This document shows positions 849 to 14,009 of a stretch of DNA of 14,009 bases, piece after piece. Source of the stretch: Nocardioides sp. (lineage in GTDB: Bacteria; Actinomycetota; Actinomycetes; Propionibacteriales; Nocardioidaceae); contig JARICB010000276.1 of assembly GCA_029264225.1 (NCBI GenBank), positions 1 through 14,009 on the forward strand. Reading direction: 5' to 3'. The notes under the pieces are model-generated. The model was not told the DNA's origin. It saw nothing but the letters and a program-made list of their open reading frames with translations, and did not search any database. Position 1 is the first letter of the stretch. Every line of letters starts with the position of its first letter. The position numbers and the translations under genes were made by a program.

Positions 849-888
849 GTATCGCCACCGTATCCAAAACCACATACACCCTCGCAAC
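849..888 (+). promoter_or_regulatory. Predicted VanR operator/promoter 1 (vanR-vanK divergent region)
   Basis: This 40-bp element begins GTATCGCC and matches the element at 2164-2203 at 29 of 40 positions without gaps. It contains TATC at 850 and again at 861, an 11-bp direct repeat expected for an OmpR-family dimer, then CATAC at 873-877 in a position suited to a -10 region. A further TATCG lies at 836-840. Its orientation points toward vanK, whose ATG at 914 is 26 nt beyond its end. It also occupies the upstream region of vanR. Binding by VanR is inferred from context and duplication; no experimental site was compared. Confidence 0.75.
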
Positions 889-913
889 ACCACTGCGTCT
901 TGTCTTGTGGCCC

Positions 914-2110
914 ATGCTCTGCTCCCAGCACTCCCTGCCGGATGTGACCACCACCGTTCGACGGATCAGCCCGGCCATCCACCTCGACTTCTTGCAACAC
1001 CAACAATCGGTGAGCTTCCTTCAGACACCGGCGTGGGGCCGGGTCAAGCGCGAATGGCGCGCTGAGTCCCTCGGTTGGTTCGACGGCGGGCGGCTGATCG
1101 GCGCGGCCCTCGTCCTGCACCGACCGATCCCCGCGGTCGAGCGATTCACGCTGGCCTACCTGGCCGAAGGGCCCATCCTCGACTGGACCGAGCAGCTCCA
1201 GACATGGCTGGATCCCCTGACCGAGTATCTGAAGCAGCACGGCGCGTTCGCGATCCGCCTCGGCCCACCGGTACGCACCCACACCTGGACCGCCGGTCAG
1301 GTCAAGGACGGCATCGCCGACCCGGCCATCAGCCGGCTTACCGACATTCCAGTCAACGCCGACCCTCTCGGGGCCAGCGTGACGAAACAGTTGCGCGAGG
1401 CCGGCTGGCTACCGCAGAACCCGGAGGACGGCTTCGGGACCGGGCATCCCCAATTCACCTTCGAGCTCCTATTGCGCGGTCCCGACGGGACTCCGAGGTC
1501 CGAGGAGGACCTGCTGGCCGGCATGAACCAGCTCTGGCGGCGCAATATCAAGAAGGCGGCCAAAGCAGGCGTGCAGGTCACGACGACACTCGCTCTCGAC
1601 GACCTGTGGACCGAGGATGTGAAGGCCTTCCACCAGCTCTACCTCCACACCGCGGAGCGCGATCACTTCACGCCCCGACCCCTGTCCTACTTCGAGACCA
1701 TGTTCACAGCCATGAAGCACGAGGACCCGAACCGGATCCGGCTGTATCAGGCCCATCACGAGGGCGACCTGGTCGCCGCCGCGATCATGATCGGCGTCCG
1801 CGACACGGCGTGGTATTCCTACGGCGCCTCCTCCACCCACAAGCGTGAGGTGCGTGGCTCCAACGCCGTTCAGTGGGCGATGATCCGCGACGCGCTTGCT
1901 GACCGGTGCAACGTCTACAGCCTGCGTGGAATCACCCCCACCCTTGACCCCGAGGACCCTCACCTTGGACTCATCCAGTTCAAGGTCGGCACGGGGGGTC
2001 AGGCAACCCGCTACGTCGGCGAGTGGGAGCTGCCCGTGCGTCCGATGCTCTATCGGGCGTTCGTGGCCTACCTGAAGGGTCGCGACCGGTGGAGGAGACG
2101 CTCCCGATGA
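914..2110 (+). CDS. vanK: VanK, FemABX-family peptidoglycan branch aminoacyltransferase
   Basis: A FemX-like protein of 398 aa. Members transfer an amino acid from aminoacyl-tRNA to the side-chain amine of the peptidoglycan stem on lipid-linked precursor in the cytoplasm. In S. coelicolor, VanK is the FemX version that accepts D-Lac-terminated precursors and is essential for growth once VanHAX acts. Visible family traits are SFLQTPAWGRVKREWRAESLGW near the N-terminus, the basic helix LWRRNIKKAAKAGVQV mid-protein, the second-domain HQLYLHTAERD segment, and a C-terminal LDPEDPHLGLIQFKVGTGG block. The ATG at 914 is chosen because it lies 26 nt after the operator, mirroring vanH (25 nt). An in-frame TTG at 905 and GTG at 944 (giving MTTTVRRIS, the likely core N-terminus) are alternatives, and no start has a strong RBS. 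It is not directly coupled to vanH, which has its own operator. Confidence 0.88.
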   Translation: MLCSQHSLPDVTTTVRRISPAIHLDFLQHQQSVSFLQTPAWGRVKREWRAESLGWFDGGRLIGAALVLHRPIPAVERFTLAYLAEGPILDWTEQLQTWLDPLTEYLKQHGAFAIRLGPPVRTHTWTAGQVKDGIADPAISRLTDIPVNADPLGASVTKQLREAGWLPQNPEDGFGTGHPQFTFELLLRGPDGTPRSEEDLLAGMNQLWRRNIKKAAKAGVQVTTTLALDDLWTEDVKAFHQLYLHTAERDHFTPRPLSYFETMFTAMKHEDPNRIRLYQAHHEGDLVAAAIMIGVRDTAWYSYGASSTHKREVRGSNAVQWAMIRDALADRCNVYSLRGITPTLDPEDPHLGLIQFKVGTGGQATRYVGEWELPVRPMLYRAFVAYLKGRDRWRRRSR

Positions 2111-2163
2111 CCCTGAACCTGGGCATCTCGGCGGCGCGGCCTCCGACTGAACCAGGCAAGCGG

Positions 2164-2203
2164 GTATCGCCGGCATATCGAAATCTGCATACGCCTCGGC
2201 AAC
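2164..2203 (+). promoter_or_regulatory. Predicted VanR operator/promoter 2 (upstream of vanH)
   Basis: This is the second copy of the 40-bp element (29/40 identity with 849-888, same orientation), in the 117-bp gap between vanK and vanH. It has TATCG at 2165-2169 and exactly again at 2176-2180, followed by GCATAC at 2187-2192 as a possible -10 region and a shared GCAAC end. The element ends 25 nt before the vanH ATG. Conservation between two otherwise unrelated gaps, both ahead of van genes, supports a VanR-activated promoter for vanHAX. Confidence 0.75.
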
Positions 2204-2227
2204 GGCCACTTCCGTTGACTGGGTGAC

Positions 2228-3250
2228 ATGAGTTGCAACATCTCGGCTGCTTCGGCCGTGCGAGCCAGAACACCGTCCGGGTCCCCCCAGTTCGCCATCA
2301 CGATCTTCAGTTGTGAGCCCGACGAGGCAGTCCTGTTTCGTCAACTGGCCTCCGACTTCGGCGCCGTCGCGACGATCCTCGGCGAGCCTCTCTCGCAGGA
2401 CACCGCTCAGGCAGCGGTGGGCAGCCATTGCATCAGCGTGGACCACAAGACCCCGGTCTCGAACGCGACACTCGCGAACCTGAGCCGGCTCGGCGTCCGC
2501 TACGTCTCCACCCGCAGCATCGGGTGCAACCACATCGACGTCGACTTCGCGGCAAGCGTGGGCATCACTGTCGGTACCGTCGCGTACTCACCCGACAGCG
2601 TCGCCGACCACACCCTGATGCTGATGTTGATGAGCCTGCGTCATATGCGGGCCACCATCACTCGCACCAACACCCACGACTACCGCCTGGCCTCCGCGCG
2701 CGGGCGTGAGCTGCGTGACCTCACCGTCGGGGTGGTCGGGACAGGAAGGATCGGGTCGGCGGTCATCGACCGCCTGCGCGGCTTCGGTTGCCGCATCCTG
2801 GCCCACGACGCCCGCATCGCGCAGCAGGGGGAGTACGTCGACCTCGACACGCTGCTGAGTGAGAGCGACATCGTCACGCTCCACACGCCGCTTACCGACC
2901 GGACCCATCACCTGCTCAACGCCGAACGCATCCAGCGGATGAAGCCCGGTGCCTGCGTGGTGAATACCGGCCGGGGCGCCCTCATCGACACAGCCGCCTT
3001 GGTGGCCGCACTGGAGAGCGGCCACCTCGGTGGCGCAGCGCTCGACGTGGTCGAAGGCGAGGACGGCATCTTCTACGCCGATCGCCGCACCACCCCGATC
3101 GACGACGAACTGTTCCTACGGCTCCACCGCCTGCCGAACCTGCTCCTCACGCCCCACACAGCCTTCTACACCGACCACGCGCTGCTCGACACCGTCGAGC
3201 ACACCCTGACCAACTGCCGGACCTACGAAAGCGGACACGACCATGACTAA
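2228..3250 (+). CDS. vanH: VanH D-lactate dehydrogenase
   Basis: A 340-aa D-isomer-specific 2-hydroxyacid dehydrogenase that reduces pyruvate to D-lactate with NAD(P)H, supplying VanA. The N-terminal catalytic part starts ITIFSCEPDEAVLFRQLA. The Rossmann motif is G171-T-G173-R-I-G176, and the catalytic triad is R249 (in TGRGALID), E278 (in DVVEGEDG) and H310 (in LTPHTAFY). The R-E and E-H intervals of 29 and 32 residues are the same as I recall for lactobacillal D-lactate dehydrogenase. About 28 residues precede the conserved ITIFSCE block, so the true start could be later, but the ATG at 2228 is the first after the operator, with GGG 4 nt before it as a poor RBS. The 3' end overlaps vanA by 8 nt. 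Confidence 0.95.
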   Translation: MSCNISAASAVRARTPSGSPQFAITIFSCEPDEAVLFRQLASDFGAVATILGEPLSQDTAQAAVGSHCISVDHKTPVSNATLANLSRLGVRYVSTRSIGCNHIDVDFAASVGITVGTVAYSPDSVADHTLMLMLMSLRHMRATITRTNTHDYRLASARGRELRDLTVGVVGTGRIGSAVIDRLRGFGCRILAHDARIAQQGEYVDLDTLLSESDIVTLHTPLTDRTHHLLNAERIQRMKPGACVVNTGRGALIDTAALVAALESGHLGGAALDVVEGEDGIFYADRRTTPIDDELFLRLHRLPNLLLTPHTAFYTDHALLDTVEHTLTNCRTYESGHDHD

Positions 3251-4280
3251 GTTGAAGCTCGGCATCCTCTTCGGCGGCATCTCCGAGGAACACCTCATCT
3301 CCCTCAGATCCGCACGCGAAGTCGCAGGGCACCTCGATCCGGACAAGTACGACCCGTACTGGATCGGCATCACCACCGACGGCGCCTGGAGACTGTGCGA
3401 CGGCCCGGAAGCTGGCTGGGAGGACACCGGACGACCGGTCGTGCTCTCACCCGACCGCACCGTGCATGGACTGCTCGTCATCGACAAGCAGGGGGTCGAG
3501 ACCATCCGGCTCGATCTGCTCCTACCCGTCCTGCACGGCAAGCTCGGTGAAGACGGCGCGATGCAGGGCCTCATGGAGCTCTCCGGGATCCCGTACATCG
3601 GATGCGACGTCCCGAGCTCAGCAGTCTGCATGGACAAGTCGCTGACCTACACCATCGCCCAGGGTGCCGGGATCGACACCCCGAACTTCTGGGTGCTCGA
3701 CGAGAACTCCCAGCCCGACGTGGAAGCGCTGACCTACCCGGTGTTCGTCAAGCCTGCCCGCTCCGGCTCCTCCTTCGGCGTCAGCAAGGTCACCGCACCC
3801 GACGAGTTGCCCGCTGCGTTGGCGCAGGCACGCCAGTACGACACCAAGGTGTTGATCGAGCAGGCCGTCATCGGCGCCGAGATCGGCTGCGCGGTCCTCG
3901 GCGAGCGCTCCAACCTGATCACCGGCGAGGTCGACCGGGTCGCACTCACCCACGGATTCTTCCGCATCCACCAGGAGGCGACCCCGGAGACCGGTTCGGA
4001 GAACTCCTCCTTCATCGTCCCCGCCGACATCTCCGAAACCGACCGCGACAACGTCAAGGAGGCGGCCAAGGCCGTCTACGCGGCCCTGGGCTGCACGGGG
4101 CTCGCCCGCGTGGACATGTTCCTCACCAAGACCGGCAAGGTGATCCTCAACGAGGTCAACACCTTGCCCGGGCTGACCTCCTACAGCCGCTACCCCCGGA
4201 TGATGGCCGCCGCAAGCCTCTCACTGGGCGAAGTGGTGGACCGCCTCGTGGCGATGACGCTGACAGGACAGCGGCAATGA
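3243..4280 (+). CDS. vanA: VanA-type D-alanine--D-lactate ligase
   Basis: A 345-aa ATP-grasp ligase that joins D-Ala and D-Lac to make the depsipeptide terminus to which vancomycin binds poorly. The N-terminal motif is LFGGISEEHLISLRSA; the ATP-grasp core includes YPVFVKPARSGSSFGVSKV and LIEQAVIGAEIGCAVLG; the metal-binding end is ARVDMFL followed by LNEVNTLPGLTSYSRYPRMM. The omega loop reads FFRIHQEATPETGSENS, with H243 at the place of enterococcal VanA His244, the residue linked to D-Lac rather than D-Ala selection. Housekeeping Ddl enzymes have a Tyr-containing loop there. The start overlaps vanH by 8 nt with a purine-rich stretch (GAAAGCGGA) upstream, and the stop overlaps the vanX ATG, so vanHAX is translated as a coupled unit. 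Confidence 0.96.
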   Translation: MTKLKLGILFGGISEEHLISLRSAREVAGHLDPDKYDPYWIGITTDGAWRLCDGPEAGWEDTGRPVVLSPDRTVHGLLVIDKQGVETIRLDLLLPVLHGKLGEDGAMQGLMELSGIPYIGCDVPSSAVCMDKSLTYTIAQGAGIDTPNFWVLDENSQPDVEALTYPVFVKPARSGSSFGVSKVTAPDELPAALAQARQYDTKVLIEQAVIGAEIGCAVLGERSNLITGEVDRVALTHGFFRIHQEATPETGSENSSFIVPADISETDRDNVKEAAKAVYAALGCTGLARVDMFLTKTGKVILNEVNTLPGLTSYSRYPRMMAAASLSLGEVVDRLVAMTLTGQRQ

Positions 4281-4948
4281 ACCCGGACTTCGCCTACGTC
4301 GACGAGTTGGTCCCTGGTATCCGCTGGGACACCAAGTACGCCACCTGGGACAACTTCACCGGCAAACCGGTCGACGGCTACCTGGCCAACCGCATCGTCG
4401 GGACCCGCGAACTCTGCGCCGCCCTGAACCGGGCGCAGACATCGGCCGAGACCCACGGCCTCGGGCTGCTCCTGTGGGACGGCTACCGCCCCCAACGCGC
4501 CGTGGACCGGTTCCTGGGCTGGTCCCAAGAGCCGGAGGATGGCCGGAGGAAGGCACGTCACTACCCCCACATCGACCGACGAGAGATGTTCGAGGCCGGG
4601 TACGTCGCCGCGGAGTCCTCTCACAGTCGCGGCAGCACCGTTGATCTGACCCTTTTCGACCGCACCACCGGACAACTCGTCGCGATGGGCGGGGATCACG
4701 ACCTGATGGACCCGATCTCCCACCACGACGCCCCAGGAGTGCCGGAAGCCGCAGCCCGAAACCGTCGACTGCTGCGGGCCATCATGGAAGACAGCGGCTT
4801 CAACTCCTACCAGCAGGAGTGGTGGCACTACACCCTGGCCGACGAGCCGTTCCCCGACACCTGCTTCGACTTCCCGATCACCTCGCTTTCGCGACCCTCC
4901 GCTGCAAAGATGGCGGATGTCAGGTCCATCGGTCGGGGACGCACGTAG
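4277..4948 (+). CDS. vanX: VanX D-Ala-D-Ala dipeptidase
   Basis: A 223-aa zinc dipeptidase that destroys D-Ala-D-Ala so that only D-Ala-D-Lac reaches MurF. All key residues fall at the same numbers as enterococcal VanX: R71 (DGYRPQR), zinc ligands H116 and D123 (SSHSRGSTVD), catalytic E181 and zinc ligand H184 (EWWHY). The start ATG lies in an ATGA overlap with the vanA stop; the frame is open much further upstream, but that stretch is the shifted reading of vanA. It ends FDFPITSLSRPSAAKMADVRSIGRGRT, about 20 residues longer than the enterococcal enzyme, which ends soon after FDFP. It acts in the cytoplasm. Confidence 0.96.
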   Translation: MNPDFAYVDELVPGIRWDTKYATWDNFTGKPVDGYLANRIVGTRELCAALNRAQTSAETHGLGLLLWDGYRPQRAVDRFLGWSQEPEDGRRKARHYPHIDRREMFEAGYVAAESSHSRGSTVDLTLFDRTTGQLVAMGGDHDLMDPISHHDAPGVPEAAARNRRLLRAIMEDSGFNSYQQEWWHYTLADEPFPDTCFDFPITSLSRPSAAKMADVRSIGRGRT

Positions 4949-4971: not shown

Positions 4972-5541
4972 ATGAGTCGATATCAGGTCGGGTACTTCGT
5001 CGGGAGCCTTTCCTCGACCTCGATCAACCGGAGGCTCAGCGAGGCGTTGATCAAGCTGGCGCCCGATGACCTCGAGTTCCGCGAGATCCCGATCGGCAAG
5101 CTGCCGCTGTACAGCCCCGACTTCGACAGCGACTACCCGGCCGAGGCCAGGGCGCTCAAGGATGGCCTGGCCGCCTCCGACGCCGTCCTCTTCGTCACCC
5201 CCGAGTACAACCGGTCGATCCCCGGTGCGTTGAAGAACGCCATCGACTGGGCCTCGCGGCCGTGGGGTCAGAACTCGTTCGACCACATGCCGGCTGCGGT
5301 CATCGGTGCGTCGATGGGACAGATCGGGACCGCTGTAGCGCAGCAGAGCCTGCGGGGGGTGCTCAGTTTCTGCAACGCCCGGCAGATGACAGCGCCTGAG
5401 GCCTACATCCACTTCCGGCCAGAGTCCTACACCGAGTCCGGCGAGGTCACCGACGAGGCGACGGCCGAGTTCCTCCGTACCTTCATGCGGGAGTTCCGTA
5501 TCCATGTCGAGCGGGTCCTGACGGTCCTACCGCGACCCTGA
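4972..5541 (+). CDS. NADPH-dependent FMN reductase (flavodoxin-like)
   Basis: A 189-aa protein of the NADPH-dependent FMN reductase family (relatives include ChrR/YieF quinone and chromate reductases). The FMN phosphate-binding loop is G11-SLSSTSINRRL, and the flavin-ring loop is T76-PEYNRSIPGALKNAIDW, both highly typical. Length fits the family. The ATG at 4972 has an RBS (AAGGGAG) 7 nt upstream. It starts 23 nt after the vanX stop with no convincing terminator, so some transcription from vanHAX is likely, although a redox enzyme is not a known part of van clusters. A short inverted repeat CCCTT-tc-AAGGG (4953-4964) overlaps its RBS and could hide it. The physiological substrate cannot be read from the sequence. 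Confidence 0.9.
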   Translation: MSRYQVGYFVGSLSSTSINRRLSEALIKLAPDDLEFREIPIGKLPLYSPDFDSDYPAEARALKDGLAASDAVLFVTPEYNRSIPGALKNAIDWASRPWGQNSFDHMPAAVIGASMGQIGTAVAQQSLRGVLSFCNARQMTAPEAYIHFRPESYTESGEVTDEATAEFLRTFMREFRIHVERVLTVLPRP

Positions 5542-5559
5542 CGGCTGCCGACGGATCAC

Positions 5560-6327
5560 TCAGCGCAGTGCGTATGTCGCCAACGAGACAGCGACGTAGT
5601 GGGCGACGAAGGCCAAGATCGTGAAGGTATGGAACACCTCATGGAAGCCGAACCATGCCGGGCTCGGATTCGGCTTCTTCAACGCGTAGACCACGCCGCC
5701 GAGGGTGTAGAGCACACCGCCGATCACCACCAGGCTCAACGTCGCGATCGCGACCGGGGTGCTCATCTGTCGGGCGCCCTCGACGAAGTCGGGAATGAAG
5801 AACACGGCAAACCAGCCGAGCCCGATGTAGATCGGCGTGTAGAGCCATCGCGGGGCACCGGTGAAGAAGACCCGGAAGAGCACGCCGAGGAGCGCACCGC
5901 ACCAGATGCCCGAGAGCAGCCAGACGCGGGGATTGCCGTTGAGCAACAGCATCGCGAAGGCGGTGTAGGTACCGGCGATCAGAATGAAGATGTTCGAGTG
6001 GTCGAGTCGGCGCAGCAGCGCCCAGACGGCCGGCTGCCACGTGCCGAGGTGGTAGATCGCCGAGACGCCGAACAGCAACAGGGCAGAGGCGATGAAGACT
6101 GCCGAACCCGCCTTCGTGCCGGGCGACGGCGAAAGGGTGATCAGCACGATCCCGGCCACTACGACGAGCGGGACCGTGCCTGCGTGGAGCCACCCGCGAA
6201 GCCGTGGCTTGAGTTCGGCCATCTTGTCGGCCATCACGATCAGGGCCGCGTCGTGGTCGAGAAACTTATTCACGAGGTCATCATGCCCCCCCTGGGGGCG
6301 CCGGTTCGACCGTCGCTGCGTTGACAT
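5560..6327 (-). CDS. trhA: Hemolysin III / TrhA family (PAQR-like) membrane protein
   Basis: A 255-aa polytopic protein with about seven hydrophobic helices. PAQR-type metal-site motifs are visible: S89 and H93 (SAIYHL), D109 (RRLDHSNIF), and H229/H233 near the C-terminus (FHEVFHTF). The family was named from a Bacillus cereus hemolysin, but related proteins are widespread housekeeping membrane proteins linked to lipid/membrane homeostasis, so a toxin role should not be assumed. The first about 31 residues (basic, then NKFLDHDAALIV) are poorly conserved in my judgement; later starts at GTG 6273 or ATG 6234 are possible, the latter just ahead of MADKMAELKPRLRGWLHAG. It converges on the FMN reductase (18-bp gap) and diverges from the acyl-CoA dehydrogenase operon. 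Confidence 0.88.
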   Translation of the reverse strand: MSTQRRSNRRPQGGHDDLVNKFLDHDAALIVMADKMAELKPRLRGWLHAGTVPLVVVAGIVLITLSPSPGTKAGSAVFIASALLLFGVSAIYHLGTWQPAVWALLRRLDHSNIFILIAGTYTAFAMLLLNGNPRVWLLSGIWCGALLGVLFRVFFTGAPRWLYTPIYIGLGWFAVFFIPDFVEGARQMSTPVAIATLSLVVIGGVLYTLGGVVYALKKPNPSPAWFGFHEVFHTFTILAFVAHYVAVSLATYALR

Positions 6328-6408: not shown

Positions 6409-7599
6409 GTGGACTTCGAGCTCGACTCAGACCAGCGAGCGTGGCGTGAGGAGGTCCGGGCCTTCCTGCGCACGCATGTCACCCCGGAGTTGCGGGCCGA
6501 GCTGGCCGCCCATGACCTCGAGGTCCTTGACGGTGAACTCGCGAAGTTCCGTCGCGCCATCGGCGAGCAGGGCTGGTTCGGCCTCAACTGGCCGGTCGAG
6601 TACGGCGGCCTGGGGCTGGGCCCGATCCACCAGCACCTGCTGGTCAGCGAGTTCGAGTACTGGGGAGTCCCTGGTCCGGATCTCACCGTGACGTCGGTGG
6701 CGCCGATGATCATGCGCCACGGCACCGACCGCAACAAGGATGAGTTCCTCCCGCCCATCGCTCGTGGCGAGATGGTGTGTGCGGTCGGCTATTCCGAGGC
6801 CGACGCCGGCACCGACCTGGCCAGCCTGCGCACCCGCGCCGTCCTCGAAGGGACGATGGAGGACGGCACCTGGGTCATCAACGGCGCCAAGATCTGGAAC
6901 AGCGGTGCCCAGCGGTCCACCCACGAGTGGTTGTGCGTGCGCACCGACCAGGATGCCCCCAAGCACCGGGGGATCTCGGTCATCATCGTGCCCGTCGACG
7001 CTCCAGGCGTATCGATCCGCCCGCTGATCGCCTGGTCGGGCTACCGCACCAACGAGGCGTTCTTCGACAACGTCCGCGTCCCCGCCTCCAACCTGGTCGG
7101 CGAGGTCAACAAGGGTTGGCGCTACATCACCCGCGCCCTGGACCTTGAGCGCGGAGCACTGACCAACGCCGGTGACCTGCGCCGGGCCGTCGACGACCTG
7201 CTGGACCTGGCCCGTCGTCCTCGTCGCGACGGCGTCGTACCTGCCCACGACGCAGCCGTCACCCGCCGACTCGCGCAGCTCGATGCCGACGTCGAGGTGG
7301 CCACCCTGATGGGGTTCGAAGCGGCCTCGATGCTCGCAGAGGGCACCATTCCGAGCATCGAGGTGAGCACCGAGAAGATCTTCACCAGCGAACTGCGCCA
7401 GCGCATCGCCGAGGTCGCTCTCGACCTGCTCGGGCCCGACGGACTGCTGGGCCACCTCACCCCCGACGCCCCCGACGACGGCCGCTTCGAGCGGCTCTAC
7501 CGGATCGCTCCGCTGATGCGCTTCGGAGCCGGCACCAACGAAGTGCTGCGCGACGTGATCGCGCAGCGCGGCCACGCCATGCCGTCCTACGGACGCTGA
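6409..7599 (+). CDS. Acyl-CoA dehydrogenase, putative catalytic (alpha) subunit
   Basis: A 396-aa acyl-CoA dehydrogenase predicted to introduce the alpha,beta double bond, with electrons passing to ETF. The GTG start at 6409 follows a GA-rich RBS (AGAGAGTGGGA). Motifs: G127-YSEADAGTD for acyl-CoA/flavin contact, VINGAKIW ending at W163, and a C-terminal GAGTNEVLRDVIAQRG. At the usual Glu of the YEGT motif it has A374 (GAGT), as in isovaleryl-CoA dehydrogenase, and it has E247 in LDLERGAL at the alternative base position of that enzyme. It lacks the R-x-Q-F-G FAD motif and the Q-x-x-GG-x-GY motif, both of which occur in the next gene, so an alpha2beta2 enzyme like mycobacterial ChsE proteins is inferred. 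It is the first gene of the operon, 9 nt before its partner. The substrate is unknown. Confidence 0.92.
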   Translation: MDFELDSDQRAWREEVRAFLRTHVTPELRAELAAHDLEVLDGELAKFRRAIGEQGWFGLNWPVEYGGLGLGPIHQHLLVSEFEYWGVPGPDLTVTSVAPMIMRHGTDRNKDEFLPPIARGEMVCAVGYSEADAGTDLASLRTRAVLEGTMEDGTWVINGAKIWNSGAQRSTHEWLCVRTDQDAPKHRGISVIIVPVDAPGVSIRPLIAWSGYRTNEAFFDNVRVPASNLVGEVNKGWRYITRALDLERGALTNAGDLRRAVDDLLDLARRPRRDGVVPAHDAAVTRRLAQLDADVEVATLMGFEAASMLAEGTIPSIEVSTEKIFTSELRQRIAEVALDLLGPDGLLGHLTPDAPDDGRFERLYRIAPLMRFGAGTNEVLRDVIAQRGHAMPSYGR

Positions 7600-7608
7600 G
7601 GAGAACAC

Positions 7609-8760
7609 ATGTTGCTCGTCGTCACTGAGCAGGAGCGCGACCTCTCGGCCGCCCTGCGTCATCTACTCACCACCCACTGCACGACCGATGTGGTCCGCCA
7701 GTCCCTGACACCGAGCAGGGATCAGTTCCCCCAGGAGTTGTGGCAGGCGTTGGTCGCTGCCGACATGCTTGCGCTGCCCTTCCCCGAAGAGTTCGGCGGT
7801 GCCGGCGGCACCCTCGACGACCTCGCGGTCTTTGCCGTCGAGGCGGGGCGGACTCTGTGCCCGAGCGTCGTGCTCGGCACCCTCCATCTGGGCCTTGCGG
7901 TCAACGCCCTGGGCAACGACACCCAACGCGGATGGCTGTTGCCAGCGATCTGTCGCGGCGAGATCCGTGGCGCGGTCGCCCTGCACAGCCCCTACGACGC
8001 CACCGACGTGCGGCCGCGCCTCACCGCCGAGTCGGTGACCACTCCCGACGGTCCCGTCTTCGAGGTCAGCGGGGAGATCGACTACGTCGATGACGCCGAC
8101 CACGCACAACTGATGCTCCTCACGGCTCGTGTGCAGTCATACGGCGAACCGGGGCACACCGTCGGCCTGCTGGTCGACCCGGCCAGCAAGGGCATCGAGA
8201 TGACGCGGTTGCCCACCAGTGACGGTGACCGCTGGCAGCGACTGCGGCTGGACCGCGTACGGGTCGCGGCGGCCGACGTGCTGGCCGGGCCCGACGACAG
8301 TGGCCTGGCAGCCGATGACCTGCGTCGGATCGCCCTGACGATCCGGGCGCTGCAATGCCTCGACATGGTCGGTGGCGCCCAGGCAGTGCTCGAGCGCACG
8401 GTGGCCTACACCTCCACCCGCGAGCAGTTCGGGCGACCGATCGCGTCCTTCCAGGCCGCCCAGCATCTCGTGGCCGACATGCACATCGCCGTACAGTCGG
8501 CCAGGTTGGCGGCACGTAGCGCCCTCTTCTGGCTGGGCCGCGGACAGCTCGCGACCCGGGAGACGGCCATCGCGGTGATGCATGCCGCCACCGCCTACCG
8601 CCGCATCACGCTCAACGCCCACCAGTTGCACGGGGGAATGGGGTACGTAGTGGAGACCGACCTCTACCTGTGGTCTGAGCGAGCACGCAGACTCGGCGTC
8701 CACGGTGGTGGCCCCGACGTGGCCGGTCGCTGGCTGGAACGGGAGATCGGCCTTGGCTGA
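7609..8760 (+). CDS. Acyl-CoA dehydrogenase, putative FAD-binding non-catalytic (beta) subunit
   Basis: A 383-aa acyl-CoA dehydrogenase homologue with an ATG at 7609 preceded by GAGGAGA. It carries the cofactor motifs missing from the previous protein: R271-EQFGRPIASFQ and Q339-LHGGMGYVVE. It lacks both possible catalytic bases: an Ile stands where isovaleryl-CoA dehydrogenase has its LDLER Glu, and the YEGT position reads HGGG. The middle motif (normally TEP-x-AGSD) is degraded to ALHSPYDATD. This complementarity indicates a heteromer with the upstream subunit in which FAD sits at the interface, as described for ChsE4-ChsE5 and FadE28-FadE29 in cholesterol side-chain degradation. The 3' end overlaps the TTG start of the following CoA-transferase. 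Confidence 0.9.
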   Translation: MLLVVTEQERDLSAALRHLLTTHCTTDVVRQSLTPSRDQFPQELWQALVAADMLALPFPEEFGGAGGTLDDLAVFAVEAGRTLCPSVVLGTLHLGLAVNALGNDTQRGWLLPAICRGEIRGAVALHSPYDATDVRPRLTAESVTTPDGPVFEVSGEIDYVDDADHAQLMLLTARVQSYGEPGHTVGLLVDPASKGIEMTRLPTSDGDRWQRLRLDRVRVAAADVLAGPDDSGLAADDLRRIALTIRALQCLDMVGGAQAVLERTVAYTSTREQFGRPIASFQAAQHLVADMHIAVQSARLAARSALFWLGRGQLATRETAIAVMHAATAYRRITLNAHQLHGGMGYVVETDLYLWSERARRLGVHGGGPDVAGRWLEREIGLG

Positions 8761-9958
8761 GCAGCGGCCGTCCGGCCAGGTCCTGTCCGGAGTGCGCGTC
8801 CTCGACCTGTCCCGCTGGGTCGCCGGCGAGTACGCCACCAAACTGTTCGGAGACTTCGGTGCCGACGTGGTCAAGGTGGAACGCCCCGGTGAGGGCAGTC
8901 TGACTCGTCAGTTCGGTCCGTTCCCCGATGACGAACCCGACCTCGAGCGCAGCGCGCTCTTCCTCCATCTCAACACCAACAAGCGTTCTGTCGCCCTGGA
9001 CCTGCGTGCCGACGCCGACCGCGAGGTCCTTCTGGAGTTGGTGCGCCGGGCCGACGCCGTCGTCGAGTCGTTCCGGCCCGGACATCTCGAGTCGCTGGGC
9101 CTGGGTCCCGACGTCCTGCGGGAGCAGAACCCGAAGCTCGTCCTGACCCGCATCAGCGCGTTCGGCCAGACCGGTCCCTACCGCGACCGGGAGGCCAGCG
9201 GCCTGGTGTTGCAGGCTGCCGGGGGACCGATGCGCGCCACTGGCCAGGCCGACCGGGCGCCCCTGCGTAAGCCGGGCCTCCTCGAGCACTACACGGTGGG
9301 CCGCACCGCGGGGCAGGCCACCATGGCCGCCCTCTTCCGAGCCCGACGCACGGGGCAGGGCGCAACGATCGACGTGTCCGGTCAGGAAGTGCTGTTGGCT
9401 GGAGCCGACCGACGCGCGTCCTACCTGCTCTCCGCGTCCTACTCGGGCATCACCGCCCCCCGCGGCGCGCGTAGCCCGCACCGCCACGGCGCGACCTTCA
9501 CCGGCCCGTTCCGCGCGGCCGACGGTTTCGTCATGGTCTATGTCACCAACGTGGCCTTCTGGAACAGGTTCGTGAACCTGATCGCAGTCGACGATCCGGC
9601 GTTCCGCGAGCGATTCCTGGATCGCCAGACGGTTCTGGGCGTCGACCGGGAGGACTTCCTCGCCTATGTCACCGCTTGGGTCGCGGCTCGACCCAAGATC
9701 GAGGTGATGGAGGCCGCCGAGGCGGCCCGCATTCCGGTAACCGCCTACCTCTCGGTCTCCGAGGTGATGGCGCACCCGCACTTCCGTGACCGCGGGGCGT
9801 TCGTCACCGGCGACCACCCCGTCGCCGGTCGGTTGGAGTACGCCGGCCCGCCGTGGCGGATGGAGCGCGGCTACGCCCTGCGTCATACGGCGCCCCTGCT
9901 CGACCAGCACGGCACCGAGGTGCGCGACGAGCTCGACCGAGCGGAGGCCCCAGCATGA
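8753..9958 (+). CDS. Family III (CaiB/BaiF) CoA-transferase, subunit lacking the catalytic Asp
   Basis: A 401-aa CaiB/BaiF-family protein. The N-terminal motif GVRVLDLSRWVAGEYATKLFGDFGADVVKVE is diagnostic. The TTG at 8753 is chosen because GGGAGA lies 6 nt upstream and it begins just before the conserved region; it overlaps the previous stop by 8 nt. The frame opens earlier (ATG 8705), but that would run 56 nt into the previous gene. Family III enzymes form an acyl-aspartyl intermediate; here the segment that should contain this Asp reads KPGLLEHYTVGRTAG, with E178-H179 at the position, so the subunit may be inactive alone. It is probably paired with the next protein, like BbsE/BbsF of benzylsuccinate activation. 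Racemase-type function is an alternative, but Asp loss argues against that too. Confidence 0.88.
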   Translation: MAEQRPSGQVLSGVRVLDLSRWVAGEYATKLFGDFGADVVKVERPGEGSLTRQFGPFPDDEPDLERSALFLHLNTNKRSVALDLRADADREVLLELVRRADAVVESFRPGHLESLGLGPDVLREQNPKLVLTRISAFGQTGPYRDREASGLVLQAAGGPMRATGQADRAPLRKPGLLEHYTVGRTAGQATMAALFRARRTGQGATIDVSGQEVLLAGADRRASYLLSASYSGITAPRGARSPHRHGATFTGPFRAADGFVMVYVTNVAFWNRFVNLIAVDDPAFRERFLDRQTVLGVDREDFLAYVTAWVAARPKIEVMEAAEAARIPVTAYLSVSEVMAHPHFRDRGAFVTGDHPVAGRLEYAGPPWRMERGYALRHTAPLLDQHGTEVRDELDRAEAPA

Positions 9959-11247
9959 GTACGTCCACCGACCTACCCCTGGACGGGATTCGGGTCCTCG
10001 ACCTCACCGTCGTCTGGTCCGGTCCGGGCGCCACCGCGCTGCTCGGTGACCTTGGCGCCGAAGTGGTCCGGGTCGAGGGCAACGACCGCCTCAGTCGCCA
10101 GGTCTCGGCCAAGGTGACCAAGGAGTCGTTCGAGAAGACCGGCTACCACGGCGGTACCTACCCCGACAAGGATCCCGGTGCCCGCCCCTACGACCGGTCG
10201 GCGCTCTTCAACTGGCACGCGCGCAACAAGCTCGCCGTGTGCATGAACCTCGACACCCCCGAGGGGCACCAGGGGTTCCTCGACCTGGTCGCCGTCAGCG
10301 ACGTGCTGGTCGAGAACAACTCCAACGGAGTCCTGGAGAAGCTCGGCATCGGCCACGAGCGGCTGCTCGAGCTCAACCCCCGCCTGGTCGTGGCCCGGAT
10401 GCCGCCCCTGGGGATGACCGGGCCGATGAGCAACTACCTCGGCTACGGACCCAACTTCAACAGCCTGGTCGGCATCGCCGCGATGGACGGCTACGAAGGT
10501 GACGAGCCCGACTCGGCCGGCGAGAACTACCACATGGACGAGGCCTCCCCGGCCGGGCTGGCCTTCGCAGTACTGGCAGCCCTGTGGGACCGCGAAAGCA
10601 CTGGGCGTGGCGGCCTGGTCGAGTTCGCCCAGGCGGAGGCCGTGATGGCCGAGGTGGGGGAGTTCTTCCTTGACCACCAGTTCAACGACCGCGACCCGGT
10701 CGTTCGGGGCAACTCCGACCCGTGGGCGGTGCAGGACGTGCTGGCCGTGCAGGGCGACGACCGCTGGGTGGCGGTGACCATCCGCGACGACCGTGACTGG
10801 GCGGCGCTGATGAGCGTCCCCGGCCTCGGTGCTGATGCTCGACTCCCCGGAGCCGACGCCGACGGTGCCACCCGACGGGACGCGACCACCGCGATCCGCA
10901 CCGTGCTTGCCGAGTGGTGTGCCGCCCGCGAGGCCGAAGAGGTCGTCACCACCCTGCAGGCGGTCGGCATTCCTGCCGGCGAGGTGATGAGTGAGCCCCA
11001 ACTGCTCGAGGACGAGCACCTGATCGCTCGCGGCTGGTGGCAGGAGCGCAGCCACCCGTCCGTCGGCACCCATCGCTACCCGGGCCAGCCCTGGCGCAGC
11101 GACGACATGGAGCTCGCCTATGGGCGGCCCTTGCCGGGGTTCGGCGAAGACAACGAATACATCTACCAAGACGTCCTGGGCTATTCCCAGGAGCGGTACG
11201 ACGACCTGGTGGCGCGCGGTCTCGTGACCGACCACCAGTTGGCGTGA
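9955..11247 (+). CDS. Family III (CaiB/BaiF) CoA-transferase, putative catalytic subunit
   Basis: A 430-aa CaiB/BaiF-family protein whose ATG overlaps the preceding stop (ATGA). It has the N-terminal motif GIRVLDLTVVWSGPGATALLGDLGAEVVRVE, an insert of about 30 residues near positions 45-75 (VTKESFEKTGYHGG region), and the substrate-domain segment GYGPNFNSLVG. D195 in NYHMDEASPAGL falls 22 residues before the G of the conserved TG-x-G turn, where my remembered formyl-CoA transferase sequence has its nucleophilic Asp. With its neighbour it probably activates the pathway acid using an acyl-CoA donor (succinyl-CoA in BbsEF), which would explain why the operon needs no acyl-CoA ligase. Donor and acceptor cannot be told from sequence. 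Confidence 0.9.
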   Translation: MSTSTDLPLDGIRVLDLTVVWSGPGATALLGDLGAEVVRVEGNDRLSRQVSAKVTKESFEKTGYHGGTYPDKDPGARPYDRSALFNWHARNKLAVCMNLDTPEGHQGFLDLVAVSDVLVENNSNGVLEKLGIGHERLLELNPRLVVARMPPLGMTGPMSNYLGYGPNFNSLVGIAAMDGYEGDEPDSAGENYHMDEASPAGLAFAVLAALWDRESTGRGGLVEFAQAEAVMAEVGEFFLDHQFNDRDPVVRGNSDPWAVQDVLAVQGDDRWVAVTIRDDRDWAALMSVPGLGADARLPGADADGATRRDATTAIRTVLAEWCAAREAEEVVTTLQAVGIPAGEVMSEPQLLEDEHLIARGWWQERSHPSVGTHRYPGQPWRSDDMELAYGRPLPGFGEDNEYIYQDVLGYSQERYDDLVARGLVTDHQLA

Positions 11248-11256
11248 GAGGAAGAC

Positions 11257-11751
11257 ATGACGGACTTGATCCCGGCCGAGGCGGCCGCTCAGATCGGCAA
11301 GATCGCCGCGACCGCGACCGGCGAGGTGAACCGACGTGACTGGCAGCGTTGGGCGGTGTCGGTAGGTGAGGACAACCCGCTGTGGTTCGACGCCGAGCAT
11401 GCGCGCGCTCACGGCTACGACGACGTCATCGCGCCGCCGCTGTTCGTGCAGTACTCGATCCTGGGTGTCACCCCGCTCGCTCAGCTGCGTCCCGACGGCT
11501 CGTCGGGGGCAGCCTCGGGCAACCTCGCGTTCCCCGACGCCCCGCGGCGGATGGCCGGCGGCGAGAGCACGACGTTCCACCTGCCCTGCTATCACCGCGA
11601 CGAGATCACGATGGAACGACGGGTCGAGTCGATCGTGCAGAAGGAAGGTCGGTCGGGGCCGTTCGTCCTGGTCACCTGGCGCACGACCTACACCAACCAG
11701 CGAGCCGAACTGGTGGCCGAGGCCACCACGTCGATGATCGCCAAGCCGTGA
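11257..11751 (+). CDS. MaoC-like hydratase, putative non-catalytic subunit (N-terminal MaoC/FAS1-type)
   Basis: A 164-aa single hot-dog protein of the MaoC N-terminal dehydratase type (HadA/HadC-like), with a GAGGAAG RBS before the ATG. The conserved segment reads SVGEDNPLWFDAEHARAHGYDDVIAPPLF. In R-specific hydratases this loop has D-x-N-P-x-H; here the Asp is E38 and the catalytic His is W43, so it is unlikely to hydrate on its own. Such subunits are known to complete the substrate tunnel of a catalytic hot-dog partner (HadAB/HadBC, ChsH1-ChsH2). The next gene supplies a His-containing partner. The spacing of 9 nt from the CoA-transferase gene places it in the same operon. Confidence 0.87.
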   Translation: MTDLIPAEAAAQIGKIAATATGEVNRRDWQRWAVSVGEDNPLWFDAEHARAHGYDDVIAPPLFVQYSILGVTPLAQLRPDGSSGAASGNLAFPDAPRRMAGGESTTFHLPCYHRDEITMERRVESIVQKEGRSGPFVLVTWRTTYTNQRAELVAEATTSMIAKP

Positions 11752-11765
11752 CGGAGGAGAGCGGA

Positions 11766-12221
11766 ATGCCTGATCTTCAGCCTGCCCAGTTGCACCACGA
11801 GGACGTCTCGGTGGGCGACGAACTGCCCGTGCTGACCGTCCAGGTCGATGAGACCCAGATGTTCTTCTTCAGCGCAGCCACCTACAACGGGCACCGCATC
11901 CACTACGACCACACGTGGGCGCGAGACCGCGAGGGCTACGACGACGTGCTCGTCCAGGGCCCCCTGCAATCAGCACTGCTGGCACGGGCCGTCACCGACT
12001 GGATCGGTGGCGCGGGGCGACTGGTGAAGTTCTCGGCGCAGAACCGCGCCGTCGCGTTCCCCGGCCAGGACCTGTCCTTCGGTGGCCGGGTCATCGCTAC
12101 TCGGGTCGAGGACGGCCGCGGCCTGGTCGACCTGGAAGTGGCCGGTCGTCGTGGCGACGACGTGCTGATGCCCGGCACTGCCACGGTCGAGTTGCCGCTA
12201 CGCGATGCGGCGGTCGTCTGA
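11766..12221 (+). CDS. MaoC-like enoyl-CoA hydratase subunit with catalytic His
   Basis: A 151-aa hot-dog protein; ATG at 11766 with a strong GGAGGAGAG RBS. The active loop reads FFFSAATYNGHRIHYDHTWAR: H46 occupies the R-hydratase catalytic His position and N41 stands where the paired Asp is usual. The N-x4-H version is common in a MaoC branch annotated as acyl dehydratases, so it is not necessarily inactive. Then follows YDDVLVQGPLQSALL, the usual MaoC helix. It is predicted to form the hydratase with the previous protein and add water to the enoyl-CoA made by the dehydrogenase pair. Its stop overlaps the ATG of the thiolase-fold gene by 1 nt (TGATG). Confidence 0.88.
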   Translation: MPDLQPAQLHHEDVSVGDELPVLTVQVDETQMFFFSAATYNGHRIHYDHTWARDREGYDDVLVQGPLQSALLARAVTDWIGGAGRLVKFSAQNRAVAFPGQDLSFGGRVIATRVEDGRGLVDLEVAGRRGDDVLMPGTATVELPLRDAAVV

Positions 12222-13426
12222 TGGGCCTGCGCGGCGACGCCGCGATCGTCGGCATCGCGGAACTGCCCGCCGAGAAGAAGCAGAGTGGGCCGCCGCGCTT
12301 CACGATCGACCAGTACGCCCACTTGGCGAAGTTGGCGCTCGACGATGCGGGGCTGCCCGCCTCGGTCGTCAACGGACTGGTCACCCACGGCATCCAGGAG
12401 TCCGACATGTTCGCCCCGGCGACACTCTCGGAGTACCTCGGGATGCCGCTGGACTTCGGCGAACGCGTCGACCTCGGTGGTGCTACCGCGGCCGGGATGG
12501 TGTGGCGCGCCGCGGCCGCGATCGAGCTCGGTGCCTGTGAGGCCGTGCTCTGCGTAGTGCCCGGGTCGCTGATGCTGCCGCGCTCCGAACGCCGGGCCCC
12601 GGCATCGGGCTCCCCGCTCTGGTACGGCGCCTCGAGTGGCAAGTACGGCTCACCCCAGGCGGAGTTCGAGATCCCCTACGGCAACGTCGGGCAGAACGCG
12701 CCCTATGCCCAGATCGCGAATCGGTACGCCGCAGAGTTCGGCTATGACCCGCGAGCGACGGCCAAGATCGCGGTCGACCAGCGCACCAACGCCTGCAGCC
12801 ACCCCGACGCCGTGTTCCACGGCAAGCCGCTGAGCGTCGACGACGTGCTGGCCAGCCCGATGATCGCCGACCCGATCCGGATGCTCGAGGTGGTGATGCG
12901 GGTCCAGGGTGGTGCCGCCGTACTGCTCACCAACGCCGACCTTGCCAGCAAGGCGCGCAACCGCCCGGTGCGGGTCACCGGCTTCGGTGAGCATCTGGCG
13001 TTCAAGACACCGACGTATGCCGAGGACCTGGTCCGCACCCCGATCGCCCGCGCTGCGGATCGAGCCTTCGAGATGGCTGGCCTGGAGCGCGCCGACGTCG
13101 ACATGGCCTCCCTCTACGACTGCTACACGATCACCGTGCTGATGACCCTGGAGGATGCCGGCTTCTGCCCCAAGGGCACCGGCATGCAATGGGTCAACGA
13201 CCACGACCTCACCTTCCGCGGCGACTTCCCGGTCAATACCGCGGGCGGTCAGTTGTCGTTCGGCCAAGCAGGCATGGCCGGCGGCATGCACCACGTCGTC
13301 GACGCAGCACGTCAGGTGATGGGTCGAGGCGCGGACGCGCAGGTGGCCGACTGCGACACCGCTTTCGTGACCGGCAATGGCGGCATCATGAGCGAGCAGG
13401 TCGCGCTGCTCCTCCAGGGCGAGTGA
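12221..13426 (+). CDS. Thiolase-superfamily protein without catalytic cysteines (Ltp2-like, putative retro-aldolase)
   Basis: A 401-aa thiolase-fold protein of the SCP-x/lipid-transfer (Ltp) branch. The nucleophile region reads D84-LGGATAAGMVW, with Ala/Thr where thiolases have Cys. The C-terminal second Cys region reads TGNGGIMSEQ (G385-N386-G387), also without Cys. The usual GH motif is replaced in NTAGGQLSFGQAGMAGGMHH. It keeps a Y299-DCYT segment, resembling the Tyr-Asp-containing motif of the Ltp2 aldolases. In mycobacteria and Thermomonospora, Ltp2 cleaves a tertiary 3-hydroxyacyl-CoA by retro-aldol reaction with the DUF35 domain of ChsH2. The next gene encodes a free-standing DUF35 protein, supporting the same role. 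A thiolytic function is unlikely; a scaffold role cannot be excluded. Confidence 0.87.
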   Translation: MGLRGDAAIVGIAELPAEKKQSGPPRFTIDQYAHLAKLALDDAGLPASVVNGLVTHGIQESDMFAPATLSEYLGMPLDFGERVDLGGATAAGMVWRAAAAIELGACEAVLCVVPGSLMLPRSERRAPASGSPLWYGASSGKYGSPQAEFEIPYGNVGQNAPYAQIANRYAAEFGYDPRATAKIAVDQRTNACSHPDAVFHGKPLSVDDVLASPMIADPIRMLEVVMRVQGGAAVLLTNADLASKARNRPVRVTGFGEHLAFKTPTYAEDLVRTPIARAADRAFEMAGLERADVDMASLYDCYTITVLMTLEDAGFCPKGTGMQWVNDHDLTFRGDFPVNTAGGQLSFGQAGMAGGMHHVVDAARQVMGRGADAQVADCDTAFVTGNGGIMSEQVALLLQGE

Positions 13427-13434
13427 GGGACACC

Positions 13435-13869
13435 ATGACGACACCGAGCACCGAGAAGGCCGTCGAACCGCGGCCCCAGCCCGAGGCCACGCCGGTCTCG
13501 CAGCCCTACTGGGATGCGTTGCGCGAGCACCGGATCTCGATCCAGCACTCTCCATCGGCGGATCAGTGGGTCTTCTATCCCCGGTTGCTGGCTCCCGGCA
13601 CCCTGGCCGACGACCTGGAGTGGCGCGAGATCTCCGGCGCCGGGACCCTCTACACCTTCACCGTGGCCGAGCGTCCCACCGCACCGCCGTGGGCCGACCG
13701 GGTGCCGCAGCTGCTGGCGGTCGTCGAGTGGGATGAGGGACCGCGCGTCAGCACCGAGCTGGTCGAGGTGGACCCGGCCGACATTCGCATCGGGATGCGG
13801 GTCAGTCCCGTCTTCCACGACGACCCCGAGTCCGGGATGACGCTGCTCCACTACCGACCGGCCGAGTAA
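13435..13869 (+). CDS. DUF35 OB-fold protein, cysteine-free, partner of the thiolase-fold protein
   Basis: A 144-aa protein; ATG at 13435, 8 nt after the thiolase stop, with GAGGGA as RBS. The pattern LEWREISGAGTLYTFTVAERP and the later PQLLAVVEWDEGPRVSTELV are the OB-fold hallmarks of the DUF35 family, which usually begins with a four-Cys zinc ribbon. Here the ribbon region (ISIQHSPSADQWVFYPR then LLAPGT) is aligned by the surrounding YWDALREHR and FYPR, but the whole protein has no Cys, so zinc binding there is lost. DUF35 proteins bind thiolase-fold partners (BbsA-BbsB, ChsH2-Ltp2, acetoacetyl-CoA synthase assemblies in archaea). It is the last gene of the operon, with its stop 10 nt from the convergent IclR gene. 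Confidence 0.87.
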   Translation: MTTPSTEKAVEPRPQPEATPVSQPYWDALREHRISIQHSPSADQWVFYPRLLAPGTLADDLEWREISGAGTLYTFTVAERPTAPPWADRVPQLLAVVEWDEGPRVSTELVEVDPADIRIGMRVSPVFHDDPESGMTLLHYRPAE

Positions 13870-13879: not shown

Positions 13880-14009
13880 TCAGTAGGACAGTCGCCGGCT
13901 GCTGAGTTCGGCGGCGGCGTCGCGGGTAAGTGCACCGATCTCGCCATAGCGCTCGGGCGTGAAGCGGGTGTCGGGACCACTCACGACCACCGCTCCGATC
14001 GGGTGCTCG
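13880..14009 (-). CDS. IclR-family transcriptional regulator, C-terminal end (truncated by window edge)
   Basis: The last 42 codons of a minus-strand gene are visible, ending at the TGA complementary to 13880-13882. The translation begins EHPIGAVVVSGPDTRFTPER and ends LSSRRLSY; the G-A-V-V-V-S-G-P-D-x-R segment followed by a terminal amphipathic helix is the typical end of the IclR effector-binding domain. The DNA-binding domain lies outside the window. IclR proteins commonly control adjacent aromatic or organic-acid catabolic operons and bind CoA-pathway substrates, so this is the nearest candidate regulator of the eight-gene operon. Only a short piece is seen, so subfamily is unknown. Confidence 0.78.
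   Translation of the reverse strand, partial: EHPIGAVVVSGPDTRFTPERYGEIGALTRDAAAELSSRRLSY

Follow-up and report, generated by a model that had tools for sequence, protein, structure and literature searches.

An operon of Nocardioides sp. that may perform one aldolytic round of steroid-type side-chain shortening

How can an acyl-CoA be shortened by an operon that provides enzymes for activation, desaturation, hydration and cleavage, and no 3-hydroxyacyl-CoA dehydrogenase (3HCDH)? This question is raised by a stretch of DNA of 14,009 nucleotides from Nocardioides sp. (GCA_029264225.1, contig JARICB010000276.1), which is referred to below as the window. An earlier interpretation based on the letters of the window (the sequence-only reading) had described eight co-directional genes here, and had proposed that the encoded protein pairs act by retro-aldol cleavage. 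Our preferred explanation, to which we assign a probability of about 0.58, is that the operon would carry out one aldolytic round of side-chain shortening on a steroid-type acyl-CoA, and that it may be the actinobacterial counterpart of the proteobacterial Scd1AB-Shy-Sal system.

All eight genes were confirmed by Pfam and NCBIfam searches, which identified two acyl-CoA dehydrogenases (ACADs), two CoA_transf_3 proteins, a FAS1_DH_region (MaoC-like), Thiolase_C_1 and OB_ChsH2_C; the MaoC family match in the operon was weak (21.1 bits; cut-off 27). The reading frames are open and co-directional on the plus strand (6409-13869), with intergenic gaps of, in order, 9, -8, -4, 9, 14, -1 and 8 bases:

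6409..7599, plus: ACADa, acyl-CoA dehydrogenase, presumed partner in an alpha2beta2 steroid-type enzyme (PF02771/PF02770/PF00441)
7609..8760, plus: ACADb, second acyl-CoA dehydrogenase, presumed partner subunit (PF02771, PF00441)
8753..9958, plus: CoATa, family III CoA-transferase, TTG start, with a GTG at 8705 also possible (PF02515, 312 bits)
9955..11247, plus: CoATb, family III CoA-transferase carrying the Asp presumed to be catalytic (PF02515, 265 bits)
11257..11751, plus: MaoCa, MaoC-fold subunit, presumed non-catalytic, ChsH2/HadA-like (PF13452, 81.5 bits)
11766..12221, plus: MaoCb, MaoC-fold subunit, presumed catalytic; a start at 11748 is possible too
12221..13426, plus: SAL, putative thiolase-fold retro-aldolase of the Sal type (CtSal 9myr_A, 453 bits)
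13435..13869, plus: DUF35/OB-fold partner of SAL, without zinc ligands (PF01796, 73.7 bits; 9myr_B, 108 bits)

The thiolase-fold protein SAL

The firmest part of the mechanism is the cleavage step: SAL very probably cleaves its substrate by a retro-aldol reaction. Its best solved relative is CtSal, a bile-acid side-chain aldolase (51.7% identity); identity is lower with Ltp2 (30%) and 4u4e (34%). Entry 9myr is the CtShyDUF35-CtSal complex. In the paper describing it (PMC12329534), Tyr302 and Cys304 of CtSal are reported as catalytic, with Gln347 and Gln352 supporting Cys304; the oxyanion hole is formed by Gln161 and Gly391, and the place of the nucleophilic Cys of thiolases is taken by a Gly. 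Conservation was analysed in the best 80 of 364 relatives obtained from one protein scan of species genomes, mostly of Mycobacterium, so that alignments including the window contain at most 81 rows, and fewer for some features. The residues Y299-D300-C301-Y302 of SAL, the supporting and oxyanion residues Gln158, Gln344, Gln349 and Gly388, and Gly87 (equivalent to CtSal Gly89), which in our own reading of the alignment replaces the thiolase nucleophile, are all kept in 81/81 rows. The YDCY motif is also common to the other sampled rows of the Sal clade. In a tree of 27 rows, whose long-branched outgroups gave rise to long-branch warnings, all 12 operon SALs that were sampled group together (100/99) within a 20-row Sal clade that contains CtSal (100/99) and lies apart from Ltp2. 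The group nearest to the operon SALs, consisting of mycobacterial paralogs and the protein of genome G099, is weakly supported (81/81).

Two other assignments were rejected. We dropped SAL as a true thiolase on account of Gly87 at the nucleophile position together with YDCY, and as an Ltp2-type aldolase on account of YDCY instead of YDHF and of its position outside Ltp2 in the tree. CoA-dependent thiolysis, which would have contradicted the sequence-only reading, is made improbable by this Gly. The sequence-only reading, which had likened the cleavage to that by Ltp2, is thus supported as regards an aldolase, but not as regards its type. Cys301 of SAL stands at the His of the Ltp2 motif. The catalytic Tyr344 of Ltp2 has been aligned with Gln352 of CtSal (PMC12329534), the position of SAL Gln349; our own alignment places a Glu of Ltp2, not Tyr344, at this position.

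Related aldolases were also observed in other contexts. A second, mycobacterial SAL paralog with 61-65% identity is present in 6/14 genomes searched and is a candidate relative of Atf1; in the four neighbourhoods examined (L147-L150) it adjoins a DUF35 gene, whose product lacks the zinc ligands as judged by eye, and some contain ACAD genes and a TetR gene. Plasmids of Mesorhizobium, Sulfitobacter and Shinella (L102, L112 and L113) encode SAL relatives with 42-46% identity in sets composed of acetoacetate-CoA ligase, SAL, an OB/zinc-ribbon protein and MaoC, with a sugar ABC transporter, a class II aldolase and a short-chain dehydrogenase/reductase (SDR) nearby; as these relatives share YDCY, another use of retro-aldol cleavage is likely there. 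Finally, a Vibrio alfacsensis plasmid (turbot intestine) carries an aldolase of the CtSal clade, and also encodes a ligase, a protein in which DUF35 and MaoC are fused, and a flavoenzyme resembling BaiCD. A reading of the flavoenzyme as a Baeyer-Villiger monooxygenase (BVMO) was rejected, because Pfam assigns it to the Old-Yellow type, with BaiCD as nearest model, below cut-off. The hydrolase on this plasmid belongs to a different family from the operon-linked esterase described below.

The predicted round and the partner proteins

In the pathway that we infer for the operon, the CoA ester would be made by the family III CoA-transferase CoATa/b, or in relatives by a CasG- or FadD1-type ligase. 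Heteromeric ACADa/b would then generate the 2-enoyl-CoA, and water would be added at C3 by a heteromeric MaoC hydratase in which MaoCb is the catalytic and MaoCa the binding subunit. SAL, held by the zinc-less DUF35 protein, would cleave the C2-C3 bond via Tyr299 and Cys301; the products would be an aldehyde or ketone together with acetyl- or propionyl-CoA. Such a round would need neither a 3HCDH nor a thiolase. The carbonyl product may subsequently be oxidised by enzymes encoded by neighbouring genes: an aldehyde dehydrogenase in Nocardioides, and a BVMO and an esterase at most loci. The latter two could act on a ketone derived from a branched substrate, on a C22 aldehyde (with aldehyde dehydrogenase and BVMO as alternatives), at a later stage on a 20-ketone or upstream on a ring ketone, and sequence alone does not order these steps. 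The hydration product had been proposed to be a tertiary alcohol; since the known Sal reaction starts from a secondary one, this may be so but need not be.

ACADa and ACADb are presumably partner subunits of a heteromeric alpha2beta2 enzyme. The best solved relatives of ACADa are 4x28_A (245 bits), which we take to be the FadE26/FadE27 complex (the entry is listed only as acyl-CoA dehydrogenase), and Tcur3483 (232 bits), the next family scoring 123 bits; its Glu247, located in the motif LDLERG, is kept in 75/75 rows. ACADb matches the NCBIfam model IpdE2 with 134 bits, below the cut-off of 450, and its second-best relative in the PDB is Tcur3481, with 94 bits versus 98 for 5ol2.

The two MaoC-fold proteins are presumed, on account of their active-site residues, to form a split heteromeric hydratase with MaoCb as the catalytic and MaoCa as the non-catalytic subunit. 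At the position expected for the catalytic His, MaoCa has Trp, Tyr or Phe in 80/80 rows; the ChsH1/ChsH2 entry 4w78_A, among its best relatives, is a weak match (E 6e-5). In MaoCb, N-x4-H is kept in 81/81 rows, the Asn occupying the place of the Asp of the canonical dyad, and its relatives include itaconyl-CoA hydratase (8khg, E 4e-11) and the ChsH1/ChsH2 entry 4wnb_B (E 1e-7). A like division has been described for C3 side chains, with ChsH1 being catalytic and ChsH2 inert through a His to Tyr change (PMC11321319). MaoC and DUF35 are encoded by separate genes (11257-12221 and 13435-13869), and not as one chain as in Shy.

For the CoA-transferases, the catalytic position is presumed from that of formyl-CoA transferase and was partly aligned. 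CoATb has an Asp at this position in 9/9 ungapped rows of 10; CoATa has a His there, and its motif RKPGLLEHYT[IV]G is present in 9/9 rows. The best solved relative of CoATb is the benzylsuccinate CoA-transferase subunit 9fn0_B (183 bits; next, 117 bits). The earlier proposal of protein pairs having BbsEF-like and Chs/Ltp-like relatives is supported, the likeness to BbsEF being that of CoATb. As the family III CoA-transferases BaiF and BaiK act on bile-acid CoA esters (PMC9868651), a CoA-transferase acting on a steroid acid would not be strange in itself. One Nocardioides genome contains CoATa and CoATb as a single frame of 814 amino acids (L108:6157-8601), which may be a fusion, a sequence error or a gene-caller artefact.

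Distribution, neighbouring genes and the link with steroids

Among the best 80 relatives, operon SALs occur in Nocardioides, Amycolatopsis, Rhodococcus, Propionibacteriaceae and many non-tuberculous Mycobacterium, the closest named aldolase relatives being those of Nocardioides. Neighbouring genes were counted in 61 of these 80 loci, namely those having at least 9.9 kb on both sides (full-flank loci), using our own codon-model gene caller, by which genes may be overlooked or drawn too long. It gave ACADa and DUF35 in 60/61 of them, and ACADb, MaoCa and MaoCb in all 61. Hence, the grouping of these genes is not due to chance. A survey of the window's genus covered 215 genomes, that of the window among them; the best 8 candidates per genome were scored for SAL and the best 6 for CasG, so that absences are not absolute. 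SAL was found at E<=1e-100 in 10/215 genomes, and therefore behaves as an accessory module.

In line with the sequence-only reading, which would have been contradicted by a 3HCDH conserved beside the set, no strong PF02737 match was found within 10 kb of the aldolase gene in 18 genomes, the window's genome being judged on its 14-kb contig only and matches weaker than about E 6e-4 falling outside the list. The nearest strong match is located about 27 kb away (G247), and a weak one of 44 residues (E 5.9e-4) about 8 kb away (G244). All 18 genomes hold 3HCDH proteins elsewhere, and SDR genes, whose products could oxidise alcohols, are present near some loci.

The activation step varies. At the 45% clustering used for these assignments, a FadD1-like ligase without the CoA-transferase cluster is present in 53/61 full-flank loci, all mycobacterial, and the CoA-transferase cluster only in 8/61; for the ligase cluster FadD1 is the best model, followed by FadD17 and CasI. 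CoA-transferase activation, taken previously as a fixed part of the pathway, is thus optional, and we dropped the idea of an obligate CoA-transferase pathway. The exchange is not absolute either, because the Amycolatopsis locus L004 has both the transferase pair and a ligase (43% identical to the cluster), and because CasG genes are located near several Nocardioides loci. Likewise, the claim that ligases and oxygenases are lacking holds inside the operon, but not beside it: relatives have CoA ligases, a BVMO and sometimes CYP125, and in the window's genome CasG and an esterase-BVMO-SDR set are present on other contigs. This genome is incomplete (2.9 Mb, 451 contigs, 84% complete) and the contig stops 140 bases past the operon. 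In Mycobacterium loci such as L009 and L033, the operon is bordered on one side by a gene for a conserved protein (cluster 9) in which an FHA domain was seen by eye, and on the other by one for a membrane protein (cluster 10). In M. tuberculosis, fadD1 presumably has such genes on its flanks as well, in which case this species may have lost the operon.

A BVMO gene is located within 10 kb in 50 of the 61 full-flank loci and a gene for an HSL-type esterase in 45; 44 loci have both genes and 10 have neither. In 14 genomes, about 90 Mb in total, 45 BVMOs were counted; a random 21-kb stretch would accordingly contain one in about 1% of cases, a figure that is not a p-value because the loci are related. 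The arrangement of the two genes differs between Mycobacterium and Nocardioides, and the pair is also present beside the aldolase gene of Rhodococcus DMU1. Eight of the 10 Nocardioides/Nocardioidaceae loci have a BVMO (L002, L003, L005, L006, L105, L106, L107 and L109); in the stretches examined around the other two (G099 and G204) neither BVMO nor esterase was found. A second set of PadR, esterase and BVMO genes lies 11-21 kb from SAL in G018, G189 and G083, and the window's genome has a PadR-esterase-BVMO-SDR set on the separate contig C261 (best matches 64, 64, 62 and 59% identical). The full type I fingerprint FxGxxxHxxx[WY] is present in 7/58 cluster BVMOs; in mycobacterial BVMOs and in the C261 protein, the His is replaced by Phe, Tyr or Met in the commonest forms (e.g. 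L056:11627-13228 and L103:2227-3825). CYP125 genes were found in 15/61 loci. Because genomes contain 1-5 CYP125-like genes (E<=1e-100, 14 genomes), the operon-adjacent one is usually an extra paralog, and we discarded it as a mark of the main cholesterol cluster. Several Nocardioides/Nocardioidaceae loci additionally contain genes for an amidohydrolase, a family-5 solute-binding protein, aldehyde dehydrogenases and an alcohol dehydrogenase, and the Amycolatopsis locus one for an amidase. A Rhodococcus qingshengii plasmid also carries SAL; genes for an ABC transporter and for two SDRs adjoin it there, as does a BVMO-like gene.

Several lines of evidence suggest that the substrate of the operon is probably of the steroid type. 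The nearest characterised relatives of most operon partners and linked proteins are steroid enzymes, as is the case for ACADa, DUF35, weakly the MaoC proteins, the BVMO (steroid monooxygenase, 610 bits), CYP125 (629 bits) and the ligase. Moreover, in 6/10 SAL-positive genomes of the genus (G018, G036, G168, G189, G062 and G081), the strand of SAL carries, at a distance of 8.4-10.0 kb, a CasG gene (NF052580, steroid-24-oyl-CoA synthetase) that passes the cut-off; in G083 and G204 the nearest is at 69 and 52 kb, respectively. At E<=1e-150, CasG is present in 9/10 SAL-positive versus 37/205 SAL-negative genomes (Fisher p 4e-6), and KshA (PF19298, E<=0.001, a few matches being weak) in 9/10 versus 115/205 (p 0.03); these p-values are overstated because the genomes of a genus are not independent. 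The window's own genome encodes CasG (848 bits) on another contig. CasG prefers C5 side chains (PMC8399759). A C5 (C24-oyl) side chain yielding an aldehyde is the likeliest length, with roughly even odds.

Competing explanations and known systems

Several observations weigh against our preferred explanation. In the SAL-positive genome G099, the SAL gene (product 68% identical) has neither an ACAD nor a MaoC gene directly next to it, and neither CasG nor KshA was among the candidates scored in this genome. The Cys3His1 zinc finger of CtShy DUF35 shapes the bile-acid pocket of CtSal, whose Arg216 affects Km (PMC12329534). In the operon DUF35 the three zinc Cys positions are Ser, Ala/Thr and Thr/Ser/Asn (77/77 rows). 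In SAL, Pro stands at the Arg216 position in 80/81 rows, and no residue is aligned with CtSal His59 in any of the 81; hence the substrate pocket may differ from that of CtSal. The Asn of MaoCb stands where ChsH1 and Shy have Asp, the same Asn being present in the alignment with itaconyl-CoA hydratase. CoATa is nearer to other families than to BbsEF and not specially close to any steroid enzyme. Nothing in the known Sal route leads one to expect the linkage with BVMO and esterase genes. Finally, the side-chain length is ambiguous, since split heteromeric hydratases are known for C3 and Sal for C5 side chains.

The BVMO and esterase genes make it worth considering, as an unlikely yet serious alternative, that the substrate is a beta-branched acyl-CoA. 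Hydration at a C3 branch would give a tertiary alcohol, SAL would release a ketone, the BVMO would convert this ketone into an ester, and the HSL-type esterase would split the ester; candidate substrates would be sterol acids alkylated at C24, giving a 24-ketone, or C23 (24-nor) steroid acids, giving a 20-ketone. This alternative takes up the tertiary alcohol of the sequence-only reading and adds the neighbouring genes to it. The frequency of the pair, far above the chance figure, its recurrence in different arrangements in Mycobacterium and Nocardioides and beside the Rhodococcus DMU1 aldolase gene, the second pairs in G018, G189 and G083 and the set on C261 all fit this possibility, and so do the published retro-aldol cleavage of C24-branched sterols (PMC3546705) and a bacterial BVMO that turns progesterone into testosterone acetate (PMC12239570). 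However, the CtSal substrate is a secondary alcohol, and the authors of that study propose that crowding would keep C3 side chains bearing a C17 hydroxyl out of a Sal-like site (PMC12329534). Other points against it are the side-chain preference of CasG, the loci with neither BVMO nor esterase, G099 and G204 included, and the low number of complete BVMO fingerprints. An equally tentative extension is that the operon and the linked esterase, BVMO and SDR might together constitute a complete, undescribed removal of the side chain of a steroid or other polycyclic isoprenoid: retro-aldol cleavage to a carbonyl, Baeyer-Villiger oxidation to an ester, hydrolysis to an alcohol, and regeneration of a carbonyl by an SDR, so that a second turn could begin. 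A 17-hydroxy or 17-keto nucleus would thereby be reached with no Ltp2 round. Three Nocardioides genomes have two esterase-BVMO sets within about 21 kb of SAL.

The same chemistry on an acyclic isoprenoid or terpenoid acid of the phytanic or citronellic type is improbable. In its favour, beta-methyl acids block ordinary beta-oxidation; CYP125 relatives include the methyl-branched lipid hydroxylase CYP124, and the alcohol and aldehyde dehydrogenase genes beside Nocardioides loci would fit a primary alcohol. On the other hand, the predominance of steroid enzymes among the nearest relatives and the linkage with CasG speak against it, and we abandoned a phytol/phytone route because the matches listed from the open-access literature on bacterial phytol ketones contained no relevant report. 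Most improbable of all is an ordinary beta-oxidation round completed by a dehydrogenase encoded elsewhere, with SAL as thiolase; the distant 3HCDH genes of 18/18 genomes and the SDR genes would allow it, but the Gly at the nucleophile position, the invariant YDCY and the lack of a strong 3HCDH match near the aldolase gene argue against it.

An aldolytic round on a steroid-type acyl-CoA remains our preferred explanation, and its closest known counterpart is Scd1A/B-Shy-Sal-Sad of P. stutzeri Chol1 and C. testosteroni, in which a secondary alcohol is converted into an aldehyde. Both have two ACAD genes, a MaoC hydratase, DUF35, a Sal-type aldolase and no dehydrogenase/thiolase step, and the aldehyde dehydrogenases beside Nocardioides loci recall the Sad route. 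Unlike that system, the operon described here is actinobacterial, combines its genes with a CoA-transferase pair, has MaoC in two genes and a separate DUF35 without zinc ligands, and is linked with BVMO and esterase genes. A 2021 review (PMC8399759) describes Scd1A/Scd1B, Shy1, Sal1 and Sad for C5 side chains in proteobacteria, and CasG/CasC/CasD/CasB without Sal for R. jostii RHA1; its table gives Sal and Sad as absent from this model actinobacterial bile-acid degrader. The cas genes resemble our case in being actinobacterial and including a CasG-type ligase, but use the thiolase CasB. In M. neoaurum, knock-out and complementation indicated that atf1 makes the C22 aldehyde, is replaceable by sal1 and works with the stand-alone DUF35 protein ChsH4 (PMC10398937). 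Its operon atf1-chsH4-chsE6-kstR3 (HBC operon) thus resembles ours in its aldolase, which is exchangeable with sal1, in its separate DUF35 and in its actinobacterial host, but no CoA-transferase, heteromeric MaoC or BVMO is named in the available passages. The igr system ChsE1/E2-ChsH1/ChsH2-Ltp2 has a heteromeric ACAD, a heteromeric MaoC with one inert subunit, DUF35 and an aldolase; it differs in Ltp2, with YDHF and another catalytic Tyr, in the fusion of DUF35 to ChsH2 and in its C3 side chain. BbsEF/BbsAB (benzylsuccinate) has a family III CoA-transferase pair and a thiolase-fold protein with DUF35, but only CoATb of our pair is nearest to it, and the Bbs pathway uses a dehydrogenase and a thiolase.

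In view of the Scd1AB and M. neoaurum systems, the earlier statement that no named pathway has this set was too strong. The original observation was right and the retro-aldol reading is well supported; uniqueness, an obligate CoA-transferase and a required tertiary alcohol are not established. As far as the open-access literature was searched, the zinc-less DUF35, the split heteromeric MaoC with Sal, the exchange of transferase and ligase, and the linkage with BVMO and esterase are little or not described. If our explanation is true, Actinobacteria possess a self-contained aldolytic module with its own activation step, which offers a natural test of the choice between aldolase and thiolase cleavage, and of DUF35 function without zinc. 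Deletion of sal/thl removes C22 alcohol by-products, and deletion or over-expression of these aldolase genes steers sterol-converting M. neoaurum between C19 and C22 products (PMC10834601, PMC12409849); a new module with a BVMO branch could therefore be of practical use.

The remainder of the window contains other genes. Upstream of the operon (138-4948) is a glycopeptide-resistance-like set composed of a VanR-O-like response regulator on the minus strand (444 bits; cut-off 505), a FemAB family gene, a VanH-like gene (471; cut-off 540), a D-Ala-D-Lac ligase (567; cut-off 550) and VanX (367; cut-off 320). Between this set and the operon (4972-6273) are genes for an FMN reductase family protein (plus) and a TrhA/haemolysin-III-like membrane protein (minus). 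The open 3' end of a convergent gene occupies 13880-14008 on the minus strand; it looked IclR-like by eye, an identity that we dropped because the HMM search gave no match. IclR genes are located near the operon in loci L106, L075 and L099.

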